From Mesobacillus subterraneus (GTDB lineage Bacteria; Bacillota; Bacilli; Bacillales; Cytobacillaceae), in assembly GCF_020524355.2 (NCBI RefSeq), contig NZ_CP129019.1:3534001-3598000 (forward strand): 64,000 nt of DNA, written 5' to 3'. The position numbers and the translations under genes were made by a program. The notes under the pieces are model-generated. The model was given only the letters and a program-made list of their open reading frames with translations, was not told where the DNA came from and made no database searches. Numbering within the stretch: position 1 is the first letter of the stretch; each line of letters opens with the position of its first letter. Below are positions 46,347-54,330 of this stretch, piece after piece.

Positions 46347-47945
46347 TTAGGAAAGCCTTCGATACTTGATTTCCCCGCCAATGATCGTCATTTCAATATC
46401 CATTGATAAAAGTTCATCTGCGTCCGTCATTTCAAATGGATTTTTGGTATAAACGGTCATATCAGCTAATTTTCCGCGTGCGATCGTGCCTTTCAGCATT
46501 TCTTCGTTTGTTGGATAGGCTCCGAGCTCTGTGAAAAGTCGGAACGCATCGAGCATTGACAGCTTCTGCTCTGGCACATAGCCATCGTGAGTTTCGCCCG
46601 GTTTTTTCCTAGTAACCGCGGCATGTATTCCCAGAACCGGGTCGACTGGTTCAACCGGCGAATCGGAACCTCCGGCACAAATGACGCCTGCTTCCATCAG
46701 GGTTTTCCAAGCGTAGGAAAGTTTGATTCTTTTTTCACCAAGACGTTCCTGAACCCAAGGGAAGTCACTTGCTATAAAACGTGGCTGAATATCCGCAATC
46801 CGGCTAGGCCCCTTCAGGCGTGGAATCAGTTCCTCCCGTAAAACTTGTGCATGAATCAGCCGGTCTCGATAAGCCGTTGCCGGGAATTGGCCCAGCACAT
46901 CAAGAACATTTTCCAGTGCCTGGTCGCCAATTGTGTGGACAGCAATCGGCATATCCAGCTCGCGCGCCCCTTTCACGATTTCGTATAAATGCTCCTGATC
47001 ATACATCGCATCGCCGTAATGACCTGGCGCATCACTATATGGTTCTGATAGCAGCGCGGTCCTCCGGCCAAATGCCCCATCGGCAAAAATCTTCACCGCA
47101 CCGATTTGCAGCGTGTCATTGCCGTAGCCTGTGTACATTCCGGCTTCTTTCAGGTTTGATAAAAACTCATGGTTAATCAAGAGATTGCTGCGTAAGCCGA
47201 GCTGCTCTCCATTTAAAAGCTCATTAAATAGATTCCATGTTTTTTCAAGACCGCCAAGATAGAGCGGGTCATTTGTATGCACGCTGGTCAACCCTTTGCT
47301 CATCGCATAATTCATCGTCTGCCGCATCGCTTTTTTCCAGTCGTTGTACGAGCGCTCCGGGATATACTGTCGGACTAAATTTGCCGCTGACTCGAGGAAC
47401 AGTCCGGTCGGTTGCTTCGTGATTTCATCGAGTACGATGGTTCCGCCCTCCGGAACCGATATCAACGGATGATAGCCGCTCACTTCGAGCGCCTTGCTGT
47501 TGACCAGGGTTGCGTGCAGGCACGTCCTTGTTAAAAATAACGGGTTGGCAGGAGCCACATAATCCAGCTCGGCAATCGTCGGAATTCCTCCGTCGGTAAA
47601 AAGGTTCTCATCCCAGCTGCTGCCGACAATCCATTCACCAGGTTCAAGCTGACTGGCTTTTCCCTTTATTTTTGCCAGCATTTCATGTTTGGTCGTGATT
47701 CCGACAAAGTCGAGATTGATGAAACTATCGGCCATGATTGATAAGTGAAGATGGCTGTCGATCAAACCCGGTGTTGCCGTCTTCCCTTCCAAATCAATGA
47801 TTTGCGCCTGGCTGCCCCATTGCAGCACAATATCTGTTGAAATTCCCATATCAATAAAACGGCCATTTTCAATGACCACTGCTTGTACAATTGGATTGCG
47901 TGAATTGAATGTATAGATGGTTCCATTTTTGTAGATGGTTCTCAA
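46347..47945 (-). CDS. YtcJ-type metal-dependent amidohydrolase
   Basis: A 532-residue amidohydrolase-3 protein. Metal ligands: HLH in GLIDSHLHLS (about 64-66), carboxylated-Lys region AVKIFADGAF, His in VHTIGDQAL, His in IHAQVL, and Asp in GGSDSPVEPVDP. Typical of N-substituted amide or cyclic substrates hydrolysed in the cytoplasm. The start is TTG 47945 with GGGGAG six bases upstream. A lysine riboswitch followed by an intrinsic terminator lies in its leader (48033-48277, same strand), implying that the enzyme is made when lysine is scarce and may act on a lysine-related or lysine-releasing compound; that link is inference. Confidence 0.9.
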   Translation of the reverse strand: MRTIYKNGTIYTFNSRNPIVQAVVIENGRFIDMGISTDIVLQWGSQAQIIDLEGKTATPGLIDSHLHLSIMADSFINLDFVGITTKHEMLAKIKGKASQLEPGEWIVGSSWDENLFTDGGIPTIAELDYVAPANPLFLTRTCLHATLVNSKALEVSGYHPLISVPEGGTIVLDEITKQPTGLFLESAANLVRQYIPERSYNDWKKAMRQTMNYAMSKGLTSVHTNDPLYLGGLEKTWNLFNELLNGEQLGLRSNLLINHEFLSNLKEAGMYTGYGNDTLQIGAVKIFADGAFGRRTALLSEPYSDAPGHYGDAMYDQEHLYEIVKGARELDMPIAVHTIGDQALENVLDVLGQFPATAYRDRLIHAQVLREELIPRLKGPSRIADIQPRFIASDFPWVQERLGEKRIKLSYAWKTLMEAGVICAGGSDSPVEPVDPVLGIHAAVTRKKPGETHDGYVPEQKLSMLDAFRLFTELGAYPTNEEMLKGTIARGKLADMTVYTKNPFEMTDADELLSMDIEMTIIGGEIKYRRLS

Positions 47946-48032: not shown

Positions 48033-48072
48033 AAAAAAGCAATGACAGAAAATAACCTATCATTGCTTTTTA
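48033..48072 (-). terminator. Riboswitch expression-platform terminator
   Basis: On the minus strand AAAAAGCAATGA and TCATTGCTTTTTT are complementary and end in a T run. It lies between the lysine aptamer and the amidohydrolase start, about 90 bp before that start. It would form when lysine is bound. Confidence 0.85.
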
Positions 48073-48093
48073 CAATATACGTTATCCGCCATT

Positions 48094-48277
48094 TCGATCA
48101 GTAGTTCTCCATGCACAAAACCCCGCATGACAGTCTGCTCCTTGTTCAGAAAGCATCCCAGCAATAATCAGTCCGACCCTGATTATGCTTCGGCAAACAA
48201 CCCTTTCAGCCACCATCAACGATTGTCTATCTCCGATGGTCTACTCTTGTTATTTGCTCCCCTACCTCACCGATCTG
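48094..48277 (-). ncRNA. Lysine riboswitch (L box) ahead of the YtcJ-type gene
   Basis: Read on the minus strand the leader carries the L-box conserved blocks in order: GGTGAGGTAG (P1, 5' side), AAGAGTA, CGGAGA, GCTGAAAGGG, TTTGCCGAAGC, AGGGTCGGACTG, TTGCTGGG, GACTGTCAT and GGAGAACTACTGATC (P1, 3' side). GATC and GTAG segments at the two ends pair to close P1. Length (about 184 nt) is right for this class. An intrinsic terminator follows at 48033-48072, so control is by transcription termination when lysine binds. The only downstream gene is the amidohydrolase at 46347-47945. Confidence 0.87.
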
Positions 48278-48406
48278 ATAAGATCATATGAAATTAGGTT
48301 AATACTATCAAATTGTCCTATTTTAATCAAGATTCTAAAATGTCTTAAAATGTTCACAGTTTTTTAGTTGCTCCCATTTTAAAATGAAGAAGAAAGGAAG
48401 TGGAAT

Positions 48407-49312
48407 ATGTTATTAAAAGAAAGAACCAAACCAGAAGAATTGGTAATTCTGCAAGCACTTAAGCCTCGAATGGAACTGGAAGAGAAAGATGCGCAAAACC
48501 TATGGACCCTGGAGAAAGGCTATGAAGGTGAAGTTCAATTCGACTTATGGTTTACGAACCATCGAGTGGAGAGTCTCATTATCAACGACCTACGCCTTGA
48601 AGTGAATGGCACACTTTTTCAAATCGATTCGTTCGTGATTACGCAGGATCGGCTCCATCTCTTCGAAGTGAAAAATCTCGAAGGGGACTATTACCTGGAT
48701 GGAGACAAATTCAAGACAGTTGCCGGGAACGAAGTTAAAAACCCACTCCATCAACTAAACCGTGCAGAGATCCTGCTAAAACAACTACTGAAGAATCTGG
48801 GCTTTTACATCCCTCTCGAACCCCACCTCATGTTCATCAACCCTGAATTCGCCCTTCTGCAAGCACCATTGAAATCCCCTATTATTTTACCAAATCAACT
48901 AAATCGCTTTATGGATAAGATGAATAGAACCTCTTCAAAATTAACGAGCAAACATTCCAAATTGGCTGAGACCCTTTTGTCATTGCATGTTAAGAAATCA
49001 CCATATACTAGGGTACCTAGTTATGATTTGGAGATGTTGAGGAAAGGGGTTATTTGTGAGTCTTGCGGGGAGTTTTTGGAGAGTTATAGTAGAAATAAAT
49101 ACATTTGTAGAAACTGTAATTCTCTAGAATATATAGAATCAGTTGTGCTTCACTCAGCTAAAACCTTTCAGTTACTTTTTCCAGAACGGAAATTAACCAC
49201 AACAGCTATCTATGATTGGAGCGATGGTCTTCTTCCAATTAAAGCTATTAGAAGAGTCTTTCAGAACAACCTTTCAGTCAATGGGGTGTTTAGCTCCACT
49301 TATTATGAGTAA
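48407..49312 (+). CDS. NERD-domain protein with C-terminal zinc ribbon
   Basis: A 301-residue protein. Residues about 35-150 form a nuclease-related (NERD) domain: GYEGEVQFDLWF, IDSFVITQDRLHLFEVKNL (the D..E-K core of the restriction-endonuclease-like fold) and NPLHQLNRAE. After a helical middle, residues about 215-240 hold a zinc ribbon (CESCG and CRNCN). NERD proteins are implicated in DNA processing but few are studied. The ATG has AAAGGAAG six bases upstream. A long 52-bp tandem array follows immediately. Confidence 0.85.
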   Translation: MLLKERTKPEELVILQALKPRMELEEKDAQNLWTLEKGYEGEVQFDLWFTNHRVESLIINDLRLEVNGTLFQIDSFVITQDRLHLFEVKNLEGDYYLDGDKFKTVAGNEVKNPLHQLNRAEILLKQLLKNLGFYIPLEPHLMFINPEFALLQAPLKSPIILPNQLNRFMDKMNRTSSKLTSKHSKLAETLLSLHVKKSPYTRVPSYDLEMLRKGVICESCGEFLESYSRNKYICRNCNSLEYIESVVLHSAKTFQLLFPERKLTTTAIYDWSDGLLPIKAIRRVFQNNLSVNGVFSSTYYE

Positions 49313-49359: not shown

Positions 49360-50455
49360 TTTTTCGGGCACATGTTCCGCTTTCTTGTTACCGAAATCTT
49401 CTGCTCCTCCACTTTTCGGGCACATGTTCTGCTTTCTTTTTACCGAAATCTTCTGCTCCTCCACTTTTCGGGCACATGTTCCGCTTTCTTGTTACCGAAA
49501 TCTTCTGCTCCTCCACTTTTCGGGCACATGTTCCGCTTTCTTCTTACCGAAATCTTCTGCTCCTCCACTTTTCGGGCACATGTTCTGCTTTCTTGTTACC
49601 GAAATCTTCTGCTCCTCCACTTTTCGGGCACATGTTCTGCTTTCTTGTTACCGAAATCTTCTGCTCCTCCACTTTTCGGGCACATGTTCCGCTTTCTTGT
49701 TACCGAAATCTTCTGCTCCTCCACTTTTCGGGCACATGTTCCGCTTTCTTGTTACCGAAATCTTCTGCTCCTCCACTTTTCGGGCACATGTTCCGCTTTC
49801 TTGTTACCGAAATCTTCTGCTCCTCCACTTTGCGGGCACATGTTCTGCTTTCTTGTTACCGAAATCTTCTGCTCCTCCACTTTTCGGGCACATGTTCTGC
49901 TTTCTTGTTACCGAAATCTTCTGCTCCTCCACTTTTCGGGCACATGTTCTGCTTTCTTGTTACCGAAATCTTCTGCTCCTCCACTTTTCGGGCACATGTT
50001 CCGCTTTCTTCTTACCGAAATCTTCTGCTCCTCTACTTTTCGGGCACATGTTCTGCTTTCTTCTTACCGAAATCTTCTGCTCCTCCACTTTTCGGGCACA
50101 TGTTCCGCTTTCTTGTTACCGAAATCTTCTGCTCCTCCACTTTTCGGGCACATGTTCCGCTTTCTTGTTACCGAAATCTTCTGCTCCTCCACTTTTCGGG
50201 CACATGTTCTGCTTTCTTGTTACCGAAATCTTCTGCTCTTCCACTTTTCGGGCACATGTTCTGCTTTCTTGTTACCGAAATCTTCTGCTCCTCCACTTTT
50301 CGGGCACATGTTCTGCTTTCTTGTTACCGAAATCTTCTGCTCCTCCACTTTTCGGGCACATGTTCCGCTTTCTTGTTACCCAAATCTTCTGCTCCTCCAC
50401 TTTTCGGGCACATGTTCCGCTTTCTTGTTACCGAAATCATGGTGGACTCCCTTTT
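49360..50455. repeat. 52-bp tandem array, 21 units
   Basis: GGGCACATG starts at 49366 and recurs at exactly 52-bp steps to 50406 (21 units, no indel). The unit contains TTTCGG and CCGAAA, which can pair in either direction along the array. Units differ by a few substitutions (GTTCCGC or GTTCTGC; CTTGTTACC or CTTCTTACC). It fills the gap between the NERD gene and the gntR promoter. Because 52 is not a multiple of 3 and the unit lacks stops, long frames run through it and one joins gntR in frame; these are not genes. Confidence 0.95.
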
Positions 50456-50593: not shown

Positions 50594-51322
50594 ATGACTC
50601 AAAATAAACAATTCCTTTATCCCCAGAAATGGCTTTCTAAGGCTTCAACCGGTGACCGGGTTGCGAGTGAGCTAAGGATGCAAATTATCGCGGGACTGAT
50701 TGAAAGCGGTGCCATCCTATCTGAAAATAAATTGGCTGCTGATTTTAACGTAAGTCGCTCACCCATCCGTGAAGCGCTTAAAATCCTCTCAGCAGAAAAC
50801 TTGATTCGCCTGGAAAGAATGGGTGCTGTAGTCATCGGCCTGACAGAAAAAGATATTGAAGAAATTTACGATGTACGTCTTTTAATTGAGTCTTTCGTTT
50901 TCGAAAGACTGACAAAAATAGATACAACCCACCTGGTGATGGAATTGAGCAAAATCCTCGAAATGATGAAAATCGCCATCAAGTACAAAGATGCCGACGA
51001 ATTTTCACTACAGGATGTGCTCTTCCATGAAACGATTATCCGGTCCATCAATCATTCCTATATCAGAATGATTTGGGATAACACGAAGCCCGTAATGGAA
51101 GCTTTCATCTTGTTATCGATGCGGGCAAGAATCGAAGAGAAATACGATGATTTCAACCGCATTCTCGAAAACCACGAGCTTTATATTGAAGCCATCAAAA
51201 CGAAGAATCGCGAACTTATGATTAAATCCTTACACCAAAATTTTGATGATGTTCAAGGTAAAGTAGACGACCTTTGGATATCGCAGCAAACGCTTTCCAA
51301 GGGAGTGGAGAAAAGTGACTGA
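50594..51322 (+). CDS. gntR: Gluconate operon repressor GntR
   Basis: A 242-residue FadR/FCD-type GntR regulator. The N-terminal winged helix holds GDRVASELRMQIIAGLIESG, LAADFNVSRSPIREALKIL and IRLERMGAVVIGL; the C-terminal FCD domain carries the effector-site residues in DVRLLIESFVFERL and DVLFHETIIRSINHSYI. The ATG at 50594 has GGTGAGG just upstream. It overlaps gntK by 8 bp and is first in the operon behind the promoter, cre-like site and operator at 50515-50567. Confidence 0.93.
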   Translation: MTQNKQFLYPQKWLSKASTGDRVASELRMQIIAGLIESGAILSENKLAADFNVSRSPIREALKILSAENLIRLERMGAVVIGLTEKDIEEIYDVRLLIESFVFERLTKIDTTHLVMELSKILEMMKIAIKYKDADEFSLQDVLFHETIIRSINHSYIRMIWDNTKPVMEAFILLSMRARIEEKYDDFNRILENHELYIEAIKTKNRELMIKSLHQNFDDVQGKVDDLWISQQTLSKGVEKSD

Positions 51323-52852
51323 GTATATGTTAGGGGTCGACATCGGTACTACCAGTACCAAGGCCGTCCTATTCAATGAAAAAGGAGAAGTCATCCAGCA
51401 GGAGAACATTGGTTACCCTCTCCATACGCCGGATATTTCAACAGCCGAGCAAGATCCTGAAGAAATTTACATGGCGGTCCTAACGGCCATTACAAAAATA
51501 ATGAAGCACAATCTGCAAAAGAAGCTGGCATTCATCTCATTCAGCAGCGCGATGCACAGCGTCATTGCGATTGATGAAAATGACGAGCCGCTCACGCCTT
51601 GTATCACATGGGCGGACAACCGCAGTGAAGCATGGGCCCATAAAATCAAAACAGAATTAAACGGACACGAAATTTACAAGCGCACAGGAACGCCGATCCA
51701 CCCGATGTCGCCATTAAGCAAGATCGCCTGGATCGTGAACGAGCGTCCTGAAATCGCCGCTAAAGCGAAAAAGTACATCGGCATCAAGGAATTTGTTTTC
51801 AAAAAGTTCTTTGACCAGTATGCCGTGGACCACTCATTGGCATCAGCGATGGGAATGATGAACCTTAAAAAGCTGGAATGGGACGAAGAGGCCCTGCAAG
51901 TCGCGGGAATTACAAAAAACCAATTATCCGAGCTGGTACCAACAACAAAAACCTTCATGAATTGCAATTCAGAAATCGCGAAGCAAATCGGGATTGATCC
52001 GGACACTCCTTTTGTCATCGGTGCAAGTGATGGCGTTCTTTCCAACCTCGGAGTCAATGCGATTGGCAAAGGTGAGATTGCAGTCACGATTGGGACAAGC
52101 GGTGCAATCCGCACGATCATCGACAAGCCTCAGACCGATGAAAAAGGACGTATCTTCTGTTACGCCCTGACTGAGAACCATTGGGTCATCGGCGGGCCCT
52201 GTCAACAATGGCGGCATGGTCTTTCGCTGGATTCGCGATGAATTCGCAGCATCCGAAGTCGAAACGGCAAAGCGTTTAGGAATTGACCCTTATAATGTGC
52301 TAACAAAAATTGCCGAGCGCGTTAGACCAGGTGCTGAAGGATTGTTGTTCCACCCCTACCTAGCGGGTGAGCGAGCTCCACTGTGGAATCCTGATGTCCG
52401 CGGTTCTTTTTTTCGGACTGACGATGTCTCATAAAAAAGAACATATGATTCGAGCTGCATTAGAGGGTGTCATTTACAATCTATATACCGTCTTCTTGGC
52501 GCTTACCGAAGCGATGGAGAGTCCGGTTACAAGGATTCAGGCTACCGGCGGTTTCGCCAGGTCAGAAGTTTGGCGACAGATGATGTCCGATATTTTCGAC
52601 ATCGAGGTAGTCGTTCCAGAAAGCTACGAAAGCTCGTGCCTTGGCGCTTGTATTCTCGGTCTTTATGCAACAGGTAAAATCGATTCATTTGATGTAGTTT
52701 CTGATATGATCGGCAGCACGCACAGTCACACGCCGAATGAGGATGCAGCCAAAGAATACAGACAGCTCGTGCCAATTTTCATCAGCTTATCGAGAGCACT
52801 TGAACAGGATTATTCGAGAATCGCTAACTATCAAAGAGGTTTGATTAAATAA
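51315..52852 (+). pseudogene. gntK: Gluconokinase GntK, interrupted by two +1 frameshifts
   Basis: An FGGY-family sugar kinase split into three overlapping frames (51315-52241, 52216-52434, 52367-52852). Removing one C from the GGGCCCT run near 52197 and one T from the T7 run near 52411 restores a continuous 511-residue protein, the expected GntK length. Family motifs are intact in the pieces: MLGVDIGTTSTKAVLF, AMHSVIAIDENDEPL, TWADNRSEAWA, IGTSGAIR, PYLAGERAPLWNPD and ATGGFARSEVWRQMMSD. The GTG start follows GGAG. As written the gene would be inactive; both insertions are in homopolymers, so sequencing error is a real possibility. The enzyme phosphorylates gluconate to 6-phosphogluconate. 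Confidence 0.88.
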
Positions 52853-52983: not shown

Positions 52984-54330
52984 ATGCCATTGGTTATTGT
53001 AGCAATTGGAATCTTAGCCTTATTATTATTGATCATGGGCTTCAAGCTCAACACATTCATTTCCTTAATTATCGTATCATTTGGTGTCGCTTTAGCACTT
53101 GGCATGCCACTTGGTGAAATTGTTAAAACAATTGAAGCCGGTTTAGGCGGAACACTTGACCACTTAGCACTGATTTTCGGTCTTGGTGCGATGCTTGGTA
53201 AATTGATCGCCGATTCTGGCGGTGCCCAGCGAATTGCAATGACACTTGTGAACAAATTTGGTGAAAAGAACATCCAGTGGGCAGTCGTGGCTGCTTCATT
53301 CATCATCGGTGTTGCTCTATTTTTCGAAGTAGGTTTAGTATTATTGATTCCAATCGTATTCGCTATTTCAAGAGAATTAAAGATTTCTATTTTGTATCTT
53401 GGTATTCCAATGACTGCCGCTTTATCTGTCACACACGGCTTCCTGCCTCCTCACCCAGGTCCAACAGTCATCGCTGGTGAGTATGGTGCAAACATTGGTG
53501 AAGTATTGCTTTACGGATTCATCATTGCGATTCCAACTGTCATCCTGGCTGGTCCAGTTTTCACGAAAATCGCGAAGAAACTTGTACCAGAATCTTTTAA
53601 CAAAACAGGAAACATCGCTTCTTTAGGAGAACAGAAAACTTTCAAACTTGAAGAAACACCTGGTTTCGGCATCAGCGTTTTCACAGCACTACTGCCAGTT
53701 ATCTTAATGTCGATCGCAACAATCATTTCTTTACTGCAAAAAACGATGGGATTCGAGGATAATGCTTTCCTTGCAACGATCCAGTTCATCGGTGATGCCG
53801 GTACTGCGATGCTACTATCTCTGCTTGTAGCCATTTACACAATGGGAATCGCACGTAATATTCCAATTAAAACAGTGATGGATTCTTGTACGACAGCCAT
53901 CTCTCACATCGGCATGATGCTCTTGATCATCGGTGGCGGCGGCGCCTTCAAGCAAGTCTTGATCAACGGCGGCGTTGGTGACTATGTAGCTGAATTGTTC
54001 CAAGGTACTTCATTATCACCAATCTTGCTTGCCTGGATCATCGCAGCAATTCTTCGTATCTCTCTCGGTTCAGCAACGGTTGCAGCTTTAACAACAGCTG
54101 GTCTTGTCATCCCGCTTCTTGGACAGACAGACGTTAACCTTGCGCTAGTCGTACTTGCAACAGGAGCAGGAAGCTTGATCGCTTCACACGTGAACGATGC
54201 AGGCTTCTGGATGTTCAAAGAATACTTCGGTCTTAGCATGAAAGAAACATTCGCAACTTGGACATTGCTTGAAACGATTATTTCAGTAGCAGGATTAGGA
54301 TTCATTCTATTGCTCAGCCTGTTTGTATAA
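52984..54330 (+). CDS. gntP: Gluconate permease GntP
   Basis: A 448-residue transporter with about 12-14 helices. Family stretches: FISLIIVSFGVALALGMPLG, GGTLDHLALIFGLGAMLGKL, GFLPPHPGPTVIAGEYGAN, GGGGAFKQVLINGGVGDYVA and NDAGFWMFKEYFGLS. It takes up gluconate with protons. The ATG follows AGGGGG at eight-base spacing. It lies 131 bp after gntK in the same direction and is followed by a strong terminator, so the operon is gntR-gntK-gntP; no gntZ follows it in this window. Confidence 0.94.
   Translation: MPLVIVAIGILALLLLIMGFKLNTFISLIIVSFGVALALGMPLGEIVKTIEAGLGGTLDHLALIFGLGAMLGKLIADSGGAQRIAMTLVNKFGEKNIQWAVVAASFIIGVALFFEVGLVLLIPIVFAISRELKISILYLGIPMTAALSVTHGFLPPHPGPTVIAGEYGANIGEVLLYGFIIAIPTVILAGPVFTKIAKKLVPESFNKTGNIASLGEQKTFKLEETPGFGISVFTALLPVILMSIATIISLLQKTMGFEDNAFLATIQFIGDAGTAMLLSLLVAIYTMGIARNIPIKTVMDSCTTAISHIGMMLLIIGGGGAFKQVLINGGVGDYVAELFQGTSLSPILLAWIIAAILRISLGSATVAALTTAGLVIPLLGQTDVNLALVVLATGAGSLIASHVNDAGFWMFKEYFGLSMKETFATWTLLETIISVAGLGFILLLSLFV

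Follow-up and report, generated by a model that had tools for sequence, protein, structure and literature searches.

A lysine riboswitch before a YtcJ-like amidohydrolase gene in Mesobacillus subterraneus, and its probable link to the salvage of bound lysine

In the 64,000-nucleotide stretch of the M. subterraneus genome that we analyzed (hereafter, the window), a gene for a YtcJ-like amidohydrolase is preceded on the minus strand by a full-length lysine riboswitch (L-box) with a switchable expression platform. Riboswitch control of the amidohydrolase is strongly supported by the covariance score, the platform and the conserved pairing of the two elements in related genomes. The best explanation, which we hold to be probable, is that the riboswitch works as an OFF switch for an enzyme of lysine salvage, which would free lysine, or a direct precursor of it, from an amide. 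The features concerned are the following.

46347..47945, minus strand: gene for a YtcJ-like (Amidohydro_3) amidohydrolase of 532 aa with a TTG start (PF07969, E 1e-104)
48033..48066, minus strand: intrinsic terminator, mutually exclusive with the antiterminator (27-leader alignment, folding)
48048..48089, minus strand: antiterminator, pairing 48089-48081 with 48056-48048 and 48076-48072 with 48066-48062 (27-leader alignment, RNAalifold)
48094..48272, minus strand: lysine riboswitch (L-box) aptamer (RF00168, full model)
48261, minus strand: rare J1/2 core base, G for A, giving AGGGG for AGAGG (comparison of L-box sequences)
48277..48281, minus strand: TTATC, possible extension of the P1 helix, predicted to pair with GATAA at 48086-48082 (alignment)
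48283..48311, minus strand: promoter-like TTGATA-17-TATGAT, directly 5' of the leader (consensus scan, 10/12 matches)

The search of the leader against Rfam revealed a match to RF00168 on the minus strand from 48272 to 48094, which covered the whole model (1-182 of 182) with 107.4 bits and an E value of 1.1e-28; the gathering score of the family is 30 bits. The preliminary description had recognized an L-box in the minus-strand leader of the gene at 46347-47945 and had named a covariance-model search as the check, which it passed well above threshold; the coordinates given there for the element, 48033-48277, agree with the positions of the aptamer and the terminator. No second Rfam match at E ≤ 1 was found besides RF00168 on either strand between 45000 and 51000. 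A chance L-box was ruled out by the covariance score together with the conservation of its pairing with the amidohydrolase. The promoter-like sequence is only suggestive as the promoter of the leader, the consensus scan having returned 7 sites against 4.1 expected by shuffling.

The window has other features around this locus. A gene for a NERD-domain protein (PF08378) lies at 48407-49312 and is divergent from the riboswitch leader. It is followed at 49361-50438 by a tandem array of 20.7 copies of a 52-bp unit with 97% matches, which is open in several frames, and the long ORFs that result are likely to be spurious. Related 52-bp units form another array, of 16 copies, downstream of lysC (L063, 2599-3428), and three places in the genome together contain 40 occurrences of a core 16-mer. 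Farther along, a gluconate-kinase-like frame in two pieces (51315-52241 and 52367-52852), possibly a broken gene, and then a GntP-like permease (52984-54330) were recognized by eye.

Between the aptamer and the gene, computation showed two mutually exclusive hairpins, the arrangement expected of an L-box expression platform. The terminator hairpin, GCAATGATAG-(8 nt loop)-CTGTCATTGC, spans 48066-48039 and is followed by T6 at 48038-48033, so that the intrinsic terminator reported earlier after the L-box does end at 48033; with its flanking A-U pairs it has a computed energy of -17.1 kcal/mol. It is missing from the output of the mechanical terminator scan, most probably because the stem is prolonged into the T run by A-T pairs. 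In an alignment of the 27 L-box leaders that precede the amidohydrolase gene, 97.8% of the terminator cells were paired and three pairs were changed on both sides. None of 500 shuffles matched its paired cells, doubly changed cells or covariation score; its count of doubly changed pairs was reached by 47 of the 500 and its count of pair types by 342, and these shuffles are a weak control, as the 27 leaders are closely related.

The antiterminator was paired in 98.1% of the cells of the same alignment and is near-invariant, with no covariation support in the 27 leaders; RNAalifold picked it unprompted. When the growing transcript was folded, the antiterminator formed first, and the terminator formed once its own 3' arm was complete. 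The putative P1 extension (TTATC/GATAA) was paired in 91.9% of the cells, again with no covariation in these leaders; by means of this helix, the lysine-bound aptamer could hide the 5' strand of the antiterminator.

The protein is intact and matched PF07969 over profile positions 1-470 of 472. Its TTG start codon, at 47945, lies 148 nt past the aptamer, with AAAGGGGAGA a few bases 5' of it, and no signal peptide was apparent by eye. The gene is under purifying selection (dN/dS of 0.032-0.055 against nine same-genus orthologues). H65, H67, K285, H337, H365, and D428, which correspond to the metal-ligand set HxH, K, H, H, D of YtcJ-like amidohydrolases, were invariant in 12 aligned proteins; by analogy with the roles described in passages of PMC13081902, they would be ligands of a binuclear metal center. 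The nearest solved structures, 3igh and 3icj, are both uncharacterized hydrolases, and the best 120 homologues listed bear names like 'amidohydrolase', 'predicted amidohydrolase YtcJ' or 'hypothetical protein'.

The occurrence of the enzyme and of L-boxes was determined by protein and L-box searches in 21 genomes of the genus, including that of the window. An orthologue with 87-100% identity was present in 17 of them (the copy in G001 is split between frames), and an L-box stood directly upstream on the same strand in all 17. The preliminary description had proposed such a survey, and the amidohydrolase proved to be the downstream gene in every carrier. The L-box is therefore no chance neighbour of the amidohydrolase. 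The four genomes that lacked the enzyme (G012, G014, G015, and G018) had two L-boxes each, and the others had three or four. The genome of the window (G000, 4.79 Mb) has two more, one before an aspartate kinase gene (lysC) and one before a gene for an NhaC-type transporter (PF03553), which is followed by a sodium-dependent transporter. Further L-boxes were seen before an amino-acid ABC transporter in G004 (L067) and G018 (L071); the binding protein of the former is nearest to lysine/arginine/ornithine types, below the family cut-off.

Outside the genus the picture was different. We compiled 58 loci that encode the enzyme at ≥60% identity, chiefly from Mesobacillus, Virgibacillus, Oceanobacillus, Lentibacillus, Ornithinibacillus, and Neobacillus, several of the genomes being common to the same-genus set. 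An L-box was detected upstream with nhmmer in 19 of the 58 and was absent from 39. Virgibacillus ndiopensis, V. oceani, Oceanobacillus salinisoli, O. damuensis, O. limi, and O. piezotolerans have the pairing, with 69-73% protein identity, and Rfam confirmed 6 of 6 Virgibacillus/Oceanobacillus L-boxes with 110.6-124 bits. In a second set of 56 enzyme loci put to Rfam, five had an L-box (the split G001 copy and four orthologues, 76-82% identical and likewise counted among the 58) and 51 had none; these negatives include five paralogues at 31-33%, one homologue at 44%, and L099, which has only 56 nt of upstream sequence. Four homologues at 42-44% had no L-box upstream by nhmmer. The association is thus tight in Mesobacillus and patchy elsewhere, and lysine control does not accompany the enzyme in all genomes, since 39 of 58 and 51 of 56 loci are without an L-box.

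A scan for known RNA elements in 12 loci without an L-box returned matches above cut-off in L146 only, a PreQ1 element and a Bacillaceae-1 RNA; neither is on the same strand as the amidohydrolase gene. In six loci of g18 genomes (L097, L096, L105, L112, L093, and L102), T-box leaders with an ATC-like specifier were seen by eye. A functional link between T-box and amidohydrolase was rejected there: by eye, the T-box precedes an ilvA-like gene that adjoins the homologous amidohydrolase on either side.

In 10 of the 19 L-box loci of the 58-locus set, the next gene encodes an AGCS symporter and is separated from the amidohydrolase stop codon by -15 to +175 bp; this gene follows the enzyme in 7 of the 39 loci without an L-box. 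The neighbour in L140 passed the family cut-offs (TIGR00835 with 408 bits against 272.65, and also PF01235); in the PDB, the sodium/alanine symporter AgcS (6cse) was the one relative found at E ≤ 0.001. Within the genus, the AGCS neighbour occurred in 5 of the 17 genomes that carry the enzyme; a close relative of it (75-77%) was found in 5 of all 21 genomes, each time beside the amidohydrolase. The partner is absent from the genome of the window, where there are only paralogues at 37-42%; here, the gene after the amidohydrolase encodes a chemotaxis receptor, across a gap of 238 bp, and the window has no L-box - amidohydrolase - AGCS operon. The earlier proposal that the amidohydrolase is the sole target stands for the leader in the window, in whose genome the two other L-boxes serve lysC and an NhaC-type gene; in relatives, the unit probably includes an importer.

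The leader itself appears to have a history. From the O. damuensis leader, we took 86 nt, made up of the last bases of the aptamer and the platform, as a query; of 397 genomes in the order, 99 gave matches. Of 41 loci with such a match outside the genus, 21 had an NhaC-like gene downstream by eye, one of which (L206) was confirmed as PF03553; among the other 20, 18 were NhaC by phmmer, one was the amidohydrolase of this study with a decayed leader, and one was YfcC-like. Because a similar platform precedes NhaC-type genes of the order, the amidohydrolase leader looks nhaC-derived.

We also built a tree of 80 leaders, in which the 27 that precede the amidohydrolase gene grouped with six of the f14 family (95/91), and Mesobacillus's own nhaC leaders fell in a separate group; the bootstrap of this tree is not quite settled, and the order within the 33 rows is partly unsure. 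In the protein tree, Mesobacillus, its nearest rows, and B. dakarensis formed a 100/98 clade. Leader and gene probably moved together, because the Mesobacillus leader groups with those of halophilic relatives and not with its own nhaC L-box. We read this as a transfer of both from a halophilic relative, in a direction that we infer, followed by losses. Leader remnants were detected in 3 of the 39 loci without an L-box: in L149 and L153, parts of the platform survive without an intact aptamer, and in L139 a portion of the 5' half survives. When each of the 39 upstream regions was shuffled five times, there was 1 match in 195. The remnants indicate that part of the scatter is loss. In L153 and L149, where the terminator platform is kept and the aptamer is deleted or gone, riboswitch decay is seen midway.

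Other explanations have to be weighed against salvage, and one of them concerns the window's copy of the switch. The J1/2 core reads AGAGG in 97 of 99 distinct L-box sequences; the exceptions are the window (AGGGG), whose G at 48261 was not mentioned in the preliminary description, and L238 (AGTGG), an NhaC-type L-box of G563 whose terminal branch in the leader tree is longer than any other. The A-to-G change could weaken lysine binding, and the strain might have a damaged switch of lowered lysine affinity, with little or no lysine control. This seems to us rather unlikely, and it is compatible with the salvage reading, as both can hold together. The antiterminator of the window also has one mismatch in the consensus pairing (GGCGG for GGAGG), and the consensus form, when forced, reached -12.2 against -17.4 kcal/mol. 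However, a weakened antiterminator is true of the consensus pairing only, and as a general claim it was rejected: a shifted version can form, with -15.8 against -17.4 kcal/mol at equal transcript length, which offsets most of the loss, and the GGCGG form is common to L036 and L039. The terminator state gave -21.6 for the window against -19.8 kcal/mol. Damage is also at odds with an RF00168 score that is still far above the cut-off and with the purifying selection on the amidohydrolase gene. Less likely again is regulatory capture, in which the substrate would be some unrelated amide and the gene would have acquired an nhaC-type L-box leader by rearrangement, lysine control being neutral or a general nutrient signal. 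The similar platforms before NhaC-type genes in other families, which suggest that the leader was recruited from a transporter gene, would agree with it, as would the 39 loci without an L-box, three of them with decayed leaders. Yet the leader has been kept in all 17 same-genus genomes with the gene and in two families, this L-box is missing from 4 of 4 same-genus genomes that lack the gene, and the AGCS gene comes next in more than half of the L-box loci of the 58-locus set.

The enzyme might instead serve the diaminopimelate branch, where it would remove the acyl group from an N-acyl precursor and so back up the M20 deacetylase encoded beside dapH. L-box control suits lysine biosynthesis, as passages of PMC5584792 describe, but we consider this role improbable: the genome already has dapH with the adjacent M20 amidohydrolase gene, lysA, and an L-box lysC, and the importer gene next in line in relatives speaks for uptake and not for synthesis. 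A missing step of the lysine pathway was likewise rejected, these genes having been found in a search that covered lysC, dapH with its M20 neighbour, and lysA. Least probable is a function in lysine catabolism or overflow, in which the switch would turn the gene on when lysine is plentiful. According to passages of PMC11477304, the lysine riboswitches of B. subtilis and E. coli are OFF switches, and a terminator that excludes an antiterminator would suit an OFF switch here as well.

We return to salvage, of which we infer co-transcription, the direction of the switch, the release of lysine, and the exact substrate. Judging from the class of riboswitch, lysine would turn the switch off. With ample lysine, the aptamer would close and withhold the 5' strand of the antiterminator from its partner, the terminator would form, and transcription would stop at about 48033. 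With scarce lysine, the antiterminator would form first and RNA polymerase would continue into the amidohydrolase gene. The enzyme, made in the cytoplasm, would then hydrolyse an amide and thereby release lysine or an immediate precursor of it, and in relatives the AGCS symporter encoded next in line would probably import the substrate. Because many relatives have the switch followed by genes for a hydrolase and an amino-acid importer, the hydrolase probably recovers bound lysine; salvage of lysine from an amide is the function toward which we lean.

The likeliest class of substrate would be a neutral zwitterionic derivative of lysine, such as an N-epsilon-acyl-lysine. AGCS carriers take neutral alpha-amino acids, and an N-epsilon-acyl-lysine retains a free alpha-amino and a free carboxyl group; for this reason we favour it as the single most likely class, tentatively and short of an even chance. 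A fuller version, slightly more doubtful, would be an operon of halophilic and soil Bacillaceae in which AGCS takes up N-epsilon-acyl-lysine that stems from the breakdown of acetylated proteins or from acyl-lysine osmolytes, a so far unassigned YtcJ clade unlike the Streptomyces acylases frees the lysine, and the unit moved between families with an nhaC-derived L-box. Lysine supply by the enzyme had already been suggested in the preliminary description, and the idea is strengthened by the gene order L-box - amidohydrolase - AGCS in relatives and by an operon in G433 (see below).

The aptamer and terminator platform are those of the RF00168 elements known before lysC, lysP/yvsH, lysW (nhaC), and lysXY, and the platform in the window resembles the NhaC-type L-box platforms of the order. 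The target differs: it is a hydrolase gene, which in many relatives is followed by AGCS. The table of L-box transporters in PMC5584792 has lysP, gabP, lysW/nhaC, yvsH, and lysXY, with AGCS not among them, and the same paper places an 'amidohydrolase' late in dap operons of Thermotogales. A glycine riboswitch, where the operon here has a lysine riboswitch, was reported before an AGCS-type gene in Streptococcus pyogenes (PMC5829553).

The closest known arrangement is the L-box - yfcC - M20D amidohydrolase operon of Clostridioides difficile (passages of PMC11477304), which likewise joins an L-box to a transporter and an amidohydrolase. There, an M20 fold goes with a YfcC-type carrier, whereas here an Amidohydro_3 fold goes with an AGCS carrier in the reverse gene order. 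We found the C. difficile layout in G433 (L223), where an L-box precedes a YfcC-like carrier, which matches PF03606 and scores under the cut-off of the YfcC equivalog, and an M20 amidohydrolase.

SmELA, a Streptomyces enzyme that acts, like SgELA and ScELA, on N-epsilon-acyl-lysine, is classed as YtcJ-like in passages of PMC10699109, an indication that lysine can be released by a relative of this fold. The epsilon-lysine acylases SmELA, SgELA, and ScELA were reported to lack the carboxylated lysine (passages of PMC11511702); the family of the window keeps K285, invariant in the 12 aligned proteins, in a comparison made by description only. Since it retains an active-site lysine that those acylases reportedly lack, the enzyme would not be simply of the Streptomyces type by this criterion. 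BwBSH, the metal-dependent bile salt hydrolase of B. wadsworthia that its authors align with COG1574 YtcJ, cd01300, and PF07969 (passages of PMC13081902), is also an amide hydrolase with metal ligands of the same type, including the carboxylated lysine; its substrate and organism are different, and it too was likened by description only. Among the paper listings and passages searched, we found no publication naming a YtcJ-like amidohydrolase or an AGCS carrier under a lysine riboswitch, and passages of PMC3766115, PMC4342826, and PMC12452182 have no mention of the pairing of a lysine riboswitch with a YtcJ-like amidohydrolase.

A metabolite riboswitch upstream of a gene names a metabolite relevant to that gene, and for this enzyme it narrows the search for the substrate to a few lysine amides. 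If the salvage reading is true, the L-box regulon would be widened from lysine synthesis and uptake to the salvage of bound lysine, AGCS carriers would join the likely L-box targets, and the locus would be an example of a riboswitch travelling together with its own gene.
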